Source: Lysinibacillus contaminans | GTDB taxonomy: Bacteria > Bacillota > Bacilli > Bacillales_A > Planococcaceae | Length of the DNA: 64,000 bases | NCBI RefSeq assembly: GCF_001278945.1 | Contig: NZ_LGRV01000003.1 | Location: forward strand, 558,001 to 622,000 | Reading direction: 5' to 3' | Shown: positions 27,759 to 29,974 of the stretch, piece after piece | How positions within the stretch are numbered: the first letter of the stretch is position 1 | How the letters are laid out: each line of letters begins with the position of its first letter | Notes under the pieces: generated by a model | Told to the model about the DNA's origin: nothing | Seen by the model: the letters and a program-made list of their open reading frames with translations, nothing else | Database searches by the model: none | Position numbers and translations under genes: made by a program

Positions 27759-27796
27759 TGCAATTAAATAAAGCGTATTAATGGGAGGTGCATTTG

Positions 27797-27862
27797 ATGG
27801 CTTCCACTTGTGCGTAGAACGGAGATGCCTCAAAAGTTTTTTGAAGCATCTCCATTTGTTTT
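27797..27862 (+). promoter_or_regulatory. Possible leader peptide and terminator upstream of trmK
   Basis: ATG at 27797 with GGGAGGTG upstream encodes only MASTCA before TAG. It is followed at once by a strong hairpin (GGAGATGCCTCAAAA / TTTTGAAGCATCTCC, 27821-27853) and a T-tract, about 60 bp before trmK. The layout resembles an attenuator or is simply a terminator preceded by a chance ORF. Confidence 0.4.
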
Positions 27863-27918
27863 TTTCTACAATTTCATACATACTAGAATTGACTATATTT
27901 AAGGTAGGCGGTAAAAAG

Positions 27919-28611
27919 ATGAATGCTCAAAAATTATCAAAACGACTTGAAACAGTGGCTAAATTTGTTCCGACAGGTGCGGTTGTAGCCGATATTGGCA
28001 GTGACCATGCTTATTTGCCATGTTATTTAATTCATAAAGGTGTTGCAACTCGTGCAGTAGCGGGTGAAGTTGTCAAAGGTCCTTTTGAATCAGCAGTAGG
28101 ACAAGTGAAAAAAGAAGGATTAACAGAAAAAATAACAGTACGATTAGCAGATGGACTTGCAGCAGTTGAAGCAGCGGATAAAGTAGATACGGTAACTATT
28201 GCAGGTATGGGTGGCCCACTCATCGTATCGATTTTAGAGAAACATCCAGAAAGTTTACGCGGTGTTACTCGTCTTATTTTACAGCCGAATATTCATGCGA
28301 AAGTTATTCGTGAGTGGGCACTAGCAAACAACTGGGCAATTCAGGATGAAGCCATTCTTGAAGAAGATGAAAAAATCTATGAAATTGTCGTTTTACAACG
28401 TGGGTCGATGAAACTAACAGAAGCTGAAATTTTATTTGGTCCAAAACTAATGCTACGCAAAGCACCAGCATTTGTGCAGAAATGGACGCGAGAAAAACAA
28501 AACTGGCAACGTGTGCTACAGTCGATTGAAGGAGCAGAGCAAACACCTGAAATCGATGAAAAACGTGCGGAATTAACGCATCTTCTAAACTTAGTAGAAG
28601 GGTTGTTGTAA
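27919..28611 (+). CDS. trmK: tRNA (adenine22-N1)-methyltransferase TrmK
   Basis: SAM-dependent enzyme making m1A22 in bacterial tRNAs. The 230 residues begin with the Rossmann fold (FVPTGAVVADIGSDHAYLP, motif I) and contain VTIAGMGGPLI and the family motif LILQPN. The C-terminus is helical. ATG 27919 is preferred: the upstream in-frame extension from 27781 runs through the terminator hairpin. yqfO starts 2 bp after the stop, the standard trmK-yqfO pair. Confidence 0.94.
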   Translation: MNAQKLSKRLETVAKFVPTGAVVADIGSDHAYLPCYLIHKGVATRAVAGEVVKGPFESAVGQVKKEGLTEKITVRLADGLAAVEAADKVDTVTIAGMGGPLIVSILEKHPESLRGVTRLILQPNIHAKVIREWALANNWAIQDEAILEEDEKIYEIVVLQRGSMKLTEAEILFGPKLMLRKAPAFVQKWTREKQNWQRVLQSIEGAEQTPEIDEKRAELTHLLNLVEGLL

Positions 28612-28612
28612 T

Positions 28613-29974
28613 GTGAAAGCAGTCAACGGACAAGAAATCATACAATTATTTGAAACATGGTCACCGAAAAAACTAGCATGTATGGAGAATGATCCAATTG
28701 GACTTGCAATTGGATCATTAAATAAGCCAATTACTAAGGTTTTAGTTACGCTTGATGTCAATGAAGCAGTGGCTGATGAAGCGATTGCGAATGGATGTGA
28801 GCTAATTATTGCGCACCATCCCCCAATTTTCCGCAAGCTAGCTAATATTCGTACAGACAATCCAGCAGGTAAGTTATATGAAAAGCTTATTAAACATGAT
28901 ATTGCCGTCTATGCAGCACATACGAATTTAGATGTAGCTGAAGGCGGCGTTAATGATTTACTAGCAGATACATTGCAATTAGAGAACCGTTCTATTTTAG
29001 AAGAGACATATGCGGAAGATGTATTAAAGCTAGCTGTATTCGTACCAACAACTCATGCTGAAAGCTTACGTGAGGCACTAGCAAAGGCTGGAGCAGGGCG
29101 TATTGGTGCCTATGAGGCTTGTAGCTATACAACGACTGGAGAAGGCCGTTTTCGCGCTCTTGAAGGCGCCAATCCTCATGTCGGTGTTATTGGTGAATTA
29201 CATGTCGAACAAGAAGTAAAAGTGGAAGTCGTCTTCCCTGCACCTATTAAAAATAAGGTTTTAAAAGCAATGCTGAATGCACATCCATACGAGGAACCAG
29301 CTTATGACTTTATTCGTTTAGATCAACAAACAAATATTATGGGGCTAGGTCGTGTTGGCTATTTACCTAAAGAAATGACACTGCGTGAATTTGCAGAGTT
29401 TGCAAAGAAGCAGCTAGATGTGCCAGCTGTACGCGTAGTAGGGGATTTAGATTCAACAGTGAAAAAGGTTGCCCTTGTTGGTGGCGACGGCAATAAGTAT
29501 ATTTATACAGCTAAACGTGCTGGGGCAGATGTATTTTTAACAGGGGATATGTATTTCCATACGGCACAGGACGCCCAAGCGATTGGTTTGCAAATTGTTG
29601 ACCCTGGTCACCATGTTGAAAAGGTAATGATTGCTGGCGTTGCGCAAAAAATGGCTGCATTATGTGCTGACAAGAAATATACGGTAGAATTTGTACAATC
29701 AGAGGTACATAACAGAACCGTTTTTATTTGTATAGAGAGGGGTATTTGTGTGGCAAATACAAGACCTGCTGGCAATGGTGCCGGTAAACTTTGGCTTGTT
29801 ATAGGTCTGATGATTGCTGTGTTCGGCATCGGAATGACACTGATGACTAATAATATGAATGACAAGAGAATCGATGAGATGACGCAACAATGTGAGAAGG
29901 ATGGGGGCGAAGCAATTGTCTCAAAAGAAAAAAGCTTCCTTTCCACAAGCTATAAATTTGAATGTAAGCAATAG
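28613..29974 (+). CDS. yqfO: Nif3-like dinuclear metal centre protein YqfO, fused in frame to a membrane tail
   Basis: Residues 1 to about 370 are the complete NIF3/DUF34 family protein. Metal-ligand motifs are IIAHHPPIF and AAHTNLDVAEGG near the start, and the late VDPGHHVEK; a PII-like insert lies in the middle. Normally such proteins end near FVQSEVHTEPF. Here the frame runs through into a TM segment (LWLVIGLMIAVFGIGMTLM) and 45 more residues. Deleting one base near 29711 restores SEVHTEPFLFV and a TAG at 29733. The fusion thus looks like a one-base insertion, or a sequence error. GTG 28613 is the start. Confidence 0.9.
   Translation: MKAVNGQEIIQLFETWSPKKLACMENDPIGLAIGSLNKPITKVLVTLDVNEAVADEAIANGCELIIAHHPPIFRKLANIRTDNPAGKLYEKLIKHDIAVYAAHTNLDVAEGGVNDLLADTLQLENRSILEETYAEDVLKLAVFVPTTHAESLREALAKAGAGRIGAYEACSYTTTGEGRFRALEGANPHVGVIGELHVEQEVKVEVVFPAPIKNKVLKAMLNAHPYEEPAYDFIRLDQQTNIMGLGRVGYLPKEMTLREFAEFAKKQLDVPAVRVVGDLDSTVKKVALVGGDGNKYIYTAKRAGADVFLTGDMYFHTAQDAQAIGLQIVDPGHHVEKVMIAGVAQKMAALCADKKYTVEFVQSEVHNRTVFICIERGICVANTRPAGNGAGKLWLVIGLMIAVFGIGMTLMTNNMNDKRIDEMTQQCEKDGGEAIVSKEKSFLSTSYKFECKQ
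29750..29974 (+). CDS. Small membrane protein ORF now in frame with yqfO
   Basis: This is the likely original downstream gene: GTG 29750 with GAGAGGGG seven bases upstream. It encodes 74 residues with a hydrophilic start (ANTRPAGNGAGK), one membrane helix (LWLVIGLMIAVFGIGMTLM), and a charged tail with two cysteines. It can still be translated independently from its own ribosome binding site even though the yqfO frame now runs into it. Function unknown. Confidence 0.55.
   Translation: MANTRPAGNGAGKLWLVIGLMIAVFGIGMTLMTNNMNDKRIDEMTQQCEKDGGEAIVSKEKSFLSTSYKFECKQ

Follow-up and report, generated by a model that had tools for sequence, protein, structure and literature searches.

The window analysed here is a 64,000-nucleotide stretch of the genome of Lysinibacillus contaminans (G000 in our genome set). 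It carries yqfO, preceded by trmK and followed by a small ORF for a membrane protein (Table 1). As written, yqfO and the membrane ORF are joined in one open frame of 453 codons, which had been reported in an earlier note on this DNA and is present; it begins with a GTG at 28613 and runs to the TAG at 29972-29974. The genome contains a single match to this frame. The note had also placed at 29750 the GTG that opens a 74-residue membrane ORF; this GTG was found at that position, with a Shine-Dalgarno-like site before it. The true start of trmK is probably further in than the listed ORF start. Two smaller observations concern the neighbourhood. A terminator-like site lies at 29780-29795, within the membrane ORF, and a 64-aa ORF at 30614-30805 matches only positions 121-175 of 184 of PF13460 (NAD(P)H-binding), below the cut-off; it is possibly the remnant of an NmrA-like gene.

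Table 1 Features of the yqfO locus, in coordinates of the window
Feature	Position	Strand	Remarks
trmK, tRNA (adenine22-N1)-methyltransferase	27781..28611	+	PF04816, E 4.4e-72, residues 69-267; directly upstream of yqfO
yqfO, DUF34/NIF3 family	28613..29710	+	normal up to residue 366
Fused frame of yqfO and membrane ORF	28613..29974	+	453 codons, open as written (ORF listing)
One-base insertion	29711..29712	+	AA, against a single A in congeners (congener DNA)
Leftover normal YqfO end	29712..29735	+	TEPFLFV and stop TAG 29733-29735, one frame over
Shine-Dalgarno-like AGAGGGG of membrane ORF	29736..29742	+	comparable G-rich run at the same place in congeners
74-residue single-TM membrane protein	29750..29974	+	own GTG start; stop 29972-29974

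The two halves of the frame and their junction

The YqfO part matches Pfam PF01784 (DUF34_NIF3; E 2.4e-81, residues 5-367 of the fused frame) and TIGR00486 (E 6.6e-87; 291.3 bits against a cut-off of 130.55). It also gives one continuous match, over residues 2-368, to PDB 2gx8, a B. cereus protein (E 7.7e-128). The central insert typical of YqfO, and not of YbgI, is present, with 363 residues spanning 247 profile positions of TIGR00486. H68, H69, H103, D107, H333 and E336, which presumably are the conserved metal-site columns, are invariant in a 46-row alignment that includes the window. All columns up to S363 that are invariant among the 45 relatives are still invariant once the window is added.

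At the junction, the window reads CATAACAG where its congeners read CATACAG or a close variant. The extra base is an A in the pair 29711-29712, which confirms the insertion that the earlier note had suspected around 29711. The change is from A to AA, and there is no long homopolymer at the site. The normal end predicted in the note, with a TAG at 29733, does lie one frame over, and this TAG is out of frame with yqfO as written. Directly before the insertion the window encodes SEV, against the usual STI or SAI of the genus; SEV and SEI are present in neighbouring genera, and the difference was therefore given no weight. By eye, no slippery heptamer was seen at the junction. The 28-base stretch 29708-29735, with up to two mismatches allowed, was found in G000 alone among 41 genomes, a weak test because the flanking bases vary too.

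The window's membrane ORF can be aligned over its length with its counterparts in 29 congeners. The conserved protein is about 74 residues long and has a single predicted TM stretch; by eye, all 30 genus sequences share two cysteines. The window's copy matches no Pfam or NCBIfam family above the curated cut-off; a match to the KxYKxGKxW signal peptide scored 20.7 bits against a cut-off of 23.6 and was taken as chance. The position of the start codon is occupied by GTG, ATG or TTG in 29 of the 30 sequences (23, 5 and 1, window included), and L025 has AGG there with an ATG slightly downstream. A G-rich, RBS-like run lies directly past the yqfO stop in the congeners. Together, the start codon and the RBS-like run make the membrane ORF most likely a separate, separately initiated gene. 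Its translation is probably coupled to yqfO termination.

The locus in related genomes

The closest named relatives of the window are Lysinibacillus. The genus set comprised 32 genomes including G000, and among its 31 congeners none has an open fused frame, leaving G000 as the sole carrier in the set. In 24 of the 31 the match is full-length, reaching residue 452 or 453, and is interrupted by exactly one stop; in the remaining seven it falls into two pieces in different frames. The DNA was read base by base in 29 of them (L002-L030), G002 and G016 being judged from match coordinates only. In all 29, YqfO ends in TEPFLFV followed by a stop, so that the comparison with the yqfO ends of close relatives, proposed in the note, returned the tail that it had predicted for the window. 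A wider search of the family gave matches in 260 of 261 genomes, among them the window's own. Among the matches listed, no open fused frame came from another genus, and the seven full-length matches from other genera each contain at least one stop. The note had favoured a frameshift over an ancestral fusion, and this holds: an ancestral fusion is ruled out by the 31 congeners and by the matches listed from other genera.

In 24 of the 29 congeners (L002-L025) the membrane ORF already lies in the frame of yqfO, behind the stop, with a stop-to-anchor spacer of 48 bases (36 in L025). In the other five (L026-L030), with a spacer of 47 bases, the two ORFs are in different frames. The window has a TAG and a 47-base spacer, the same combination as in L026 and L027. 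The spacer therefore takes three lengths in the genus (48, 47 and 36 bases), yet the RBS-like run persists before the start of the membrane ORF.

These arrangements qualify the single insertion proposed in the earlier note. One insertion is enough only from an L026-like ancestor (TAG, 47 bases), since the window shares the TAG and the 47-base spacer with L026 and L027. Starting from the commonest arrangement, two compensating one-base indels (+1 and -1) are needed. In a tree built from a 1090-base stretch of yqfO (window and 29 congeners), the window falls in a well supported group of nine (100/98) that contains both spacer forms, and it sits beside five TAA/48 rows with moderate support (90/87). 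Rows with the 47-base spacer are not confined to one part of this tree.

The tail that is out of frame in the window is conserved elsewhere. The counts cover 80 named relatives, the best of 237 confirmed places, and part of them are the same organisms as the congeners. T[ED]PF lies inside the last 20 residues in 78 of these 80 and is followed by exactly three residues in 77 and by four in one; the two exceptions end TEVFHFL and TEVFRFV. This spacing is an empirical feature of the relatives and no formal criterion, and the window has no in-frame end three residues past T[ED]PF. In the 45 that were aligned out of these best 80 of 237, S363, T367 and F370 do not vary, and P369 hardly varies. When the window is aligned, F371 is placed under the invariant tail F, and the T and P are displaced. 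Going by this placement, one of the two invariant tail letters (F) may be called kept.

AlphaFold2 models were compared for the fused frame and for the intact YqfO of L. mangiferihumi (L077). The intact protein has a mean pLDDT of 92.2, with 90 over residues 361-370 and 72 over 371-373, and its tail is modelled as coil after the last strand. For the fused frame the mean is 85.8. Its core blocks have nearly the same scores as those of the intact protein, and block 361-370 drops to 77. Residues 373-405 fall below 50. Over the membrane ORF, the model contains a long helix at 391-429, which starts in the low-confidence part, and two strands.

Age of the frame loss and quality of the assembly

At fourfold sites, the window differs from six relatives by 0.61-0.63 (corrected, 1.23-1.39), which corresponds to about 0.6 changes per site on the window's own branch if the divergence is split evenly. 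Under a simple neutral model, simulated at 0.62 changes per site, the probability that the old-frame tail keeps its protein sequence is 0.0001 for a frame loss at the base of the branch. It rises to 0.03 for a loss at 0.3 of the branch, to 0.10 at 0.2 and to 0.31 at 0.1. The old tail overlaps no recognised gene, and the RBS-like site starts only past the TAG. The old-frame tail is thus intact on a long branch and without an overlapping gene, and the loss of the frame is either very young or a technical artefact.

The assembly was examined for signs of the latter. G000 is a 4.1-Mb draft in 9 contigs with an estimated completeness of 86%, and the yqfO site lies well inside a 2.6-Mb contig. Over 800 kb, a frame change in G000 broke 1 of 363 genes with G026 queries and 1 of 369 with G027 queries, the same gene in each case; in the control comparisons between G026 and G027, 4 of 538 and 4 of 540 were broken. 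Over 400 kb, 1 of 213 G020 genes and 1 of 222 G026 genes were broken in G000, against 2 of 287 and 2 of 292 in the G020-G026 controls. In the reverse direction, 0 of 210 and 1 of 218 G000 genes were broken in G020 and G026. The counts leave out genes below 60% identity or 80% coverage, and identity was unequal between the comparisons (about 84% for G000, 90% for G027-G026). The broken gene in G000 is the same one throughout both surveys. It lies outside the window, at about 655585 of contig G000:C1 (L164), where a 128-aa ORF of relatives is split at residue 68, beside a T5 run and an RBS-like site with an ATG.

A generally frameshift-ridden assembly is not borne out by these counts, in which G000 is no richer in broken genes than the controls over either span. 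Errors are therefore not widespread, and a single local one would escape such a survey.

The surveys are blind to frameshifts in the last few codons, and yqfO itself was not flagged; C-terminal lengths were therefore compared. Over 400 kb, the C-terminus differed by more than 20 aa in 2 of 231 pairs for G000-G020, 2 of 230 for G000-G026 and 1 of 231 for G000-G027, and in 2 of 300, 1 of 290 and 3 of 303 control pairs. Among reciprocal best pairs in this span, yqfO alone was more than 20 aa longer at the C-terminus in G000 than in all three comparators. Over 800 kb the figure for G000-G026 (6 of 361) is higher than that of the G027-G026 control (2 of 532), a point against the reading favoured below; G000-G027 gave 2 of 373. 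Only yqfO and a 22-aa case (G000_512) are common to both comparators, the four others being seen against G026 only.

Interpretation of the fused frame

The reading we favour, with a probability of about 0.57, is that one base was inserted very recently, in this lineage only, close to the 3' end of a yqfO that is otherwise normal. We rank a true mutation in the strain first and an assembly error second; a fusion that is selected or programmed, for which no support was found, is unlikely. The best reading is of a frameshift that extends YqfO by accident and is ordinary in kind. Ribosomes would exit the old frame at codon 367 and bypass the old TAG at 29733. They would then translate 13 unprecedented codons (NRTVFICIERGIC) that span the next gene's ribosome-binding site, reach the GTG of the membrane ORF in the frame of that ORF, and terminate at 29972. 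The predicted product is a YqfO that has lost its TEPF tail and carries a disordered linker and a TM anchor instead. Its core would probably still fold on the cytoplasmic side and be tethered or degraded. The small membrane protein could still be started at its own GTG, with its coupling to yqfO termination presumably lost.

The strongest competitor, tentative next to a true insertion, is a sequencing or assembly error, with the real gene ending in TEPFLFV-TAG and the membrane ORF separate and out of frame as in L026. A single local error would yield an identical sequence, and it would account for an old tail fully kept one frame over, for a TAG and spacer already known from L026 and L027, and for an event unique among the genomes compared. 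The draft state of the assembly fits as well, and PMC11017572 attributes many apparent pseudogenes in public genomes to assembly errors. PMC4494051 likewise describes one putative gene fusion that turned out to be replicated assembly errors. Against this stand the broken-gene counts over 800 kb, which do not exceed those of the controls, and a site that is not a long homopolymer and lies far from the contig ends.

A recent insertion is also to be weighed against a fusion maintained by selection, in which this species holds YqfO at the membrane by design. The genome has no second yqfO match, both parts are intact and the junction is open, and a cytoplasmic YqfO ahead of one TM helix would be a possible topology. 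Fusions of other kinds involving DUF34 are on record (PMC8469502, section 3.8). This reading is nevertheless very improbable. The old tail is unchanged at the protein level, and thus selection has had little time to act on the new frame; moreover, the linker is predicted to be disordered, the conserved tail is lost, the RBS-like site and GTG of a separate membrane protein are kept, and no congener shares the fusion. We give equally little credence to the idea that YqfO in this strain really is held at the membrane, as a metal-chaperone-like ring anchored next to its operon partner and caught as the bypass of a stop fuses the two genes. If true, this would suggest that the small membrane protein and YqfO cooperate already.

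Least probable of all is recoding, in which programmed frameshifting, or stop readthrough in the in-frame relatives, would set a regulated proportion of fused and normal product: the membrane ORF does lie in frame behind a single stop in most congeners, but the frame relation differs in five of them from more than one part of the tree, the RBS-like run is kept between the genes, the start codon varies only among start codons in all but one sequence, and the by-eye inspection gave no slippery heptamer.

Taken at face value, the sequence would enter the records as a false YqfO-membrane fusion of 453 residues. The frameshift itself matters little, being a single-genome mutation or an error. A useful by-product is the small conserved TM protein that follows yqfO in all 29 Lysinibacillus-group genomes read. 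With its RBS-like site adjoining the yqfO stop, it hints at coupled translation of the two genes and, for a family that is poorly understood, at a possible partner in the membrane; it is a candidate functional partner of YqfO.

The YqfO part of the window is like other DUF34/NIF3 proteins with the central insert, such as PDB 2gx8 and SA1388 (3lnl, 2nyd). It differs from them in having the 13 new residues and the TM protein in place of the terminal TEPFLFV. Likewise, where the small membrane protein follows yqfO in Lysinibacillus, only the window's copy is in an open frame with it. For the family, PMC8469502 gives seven metal-binding residues (five His, one Glu and one Asp) and a proposed role as metal chaperone or insertase, and in B. 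subtilis YqfO is described as a global regulator (PMC8670212). A DUF34 fusion to a small TM protein is not named in section 3.8 of PMC8469502, and the word "transmembrane" is absent from its main text. Background on frame transitions and translational coupling is provided by PMC3711429. The nearest parallel in kind is the C-terminal extension by stop-codon loss treated in PMC4494051, in which, as here, a recent stop bypass adds downstream sequence to an old protein. Those cases come from yeast and flies and add noncoding sequence, whereas in the window it is a neighbouring conserved gene that is added.
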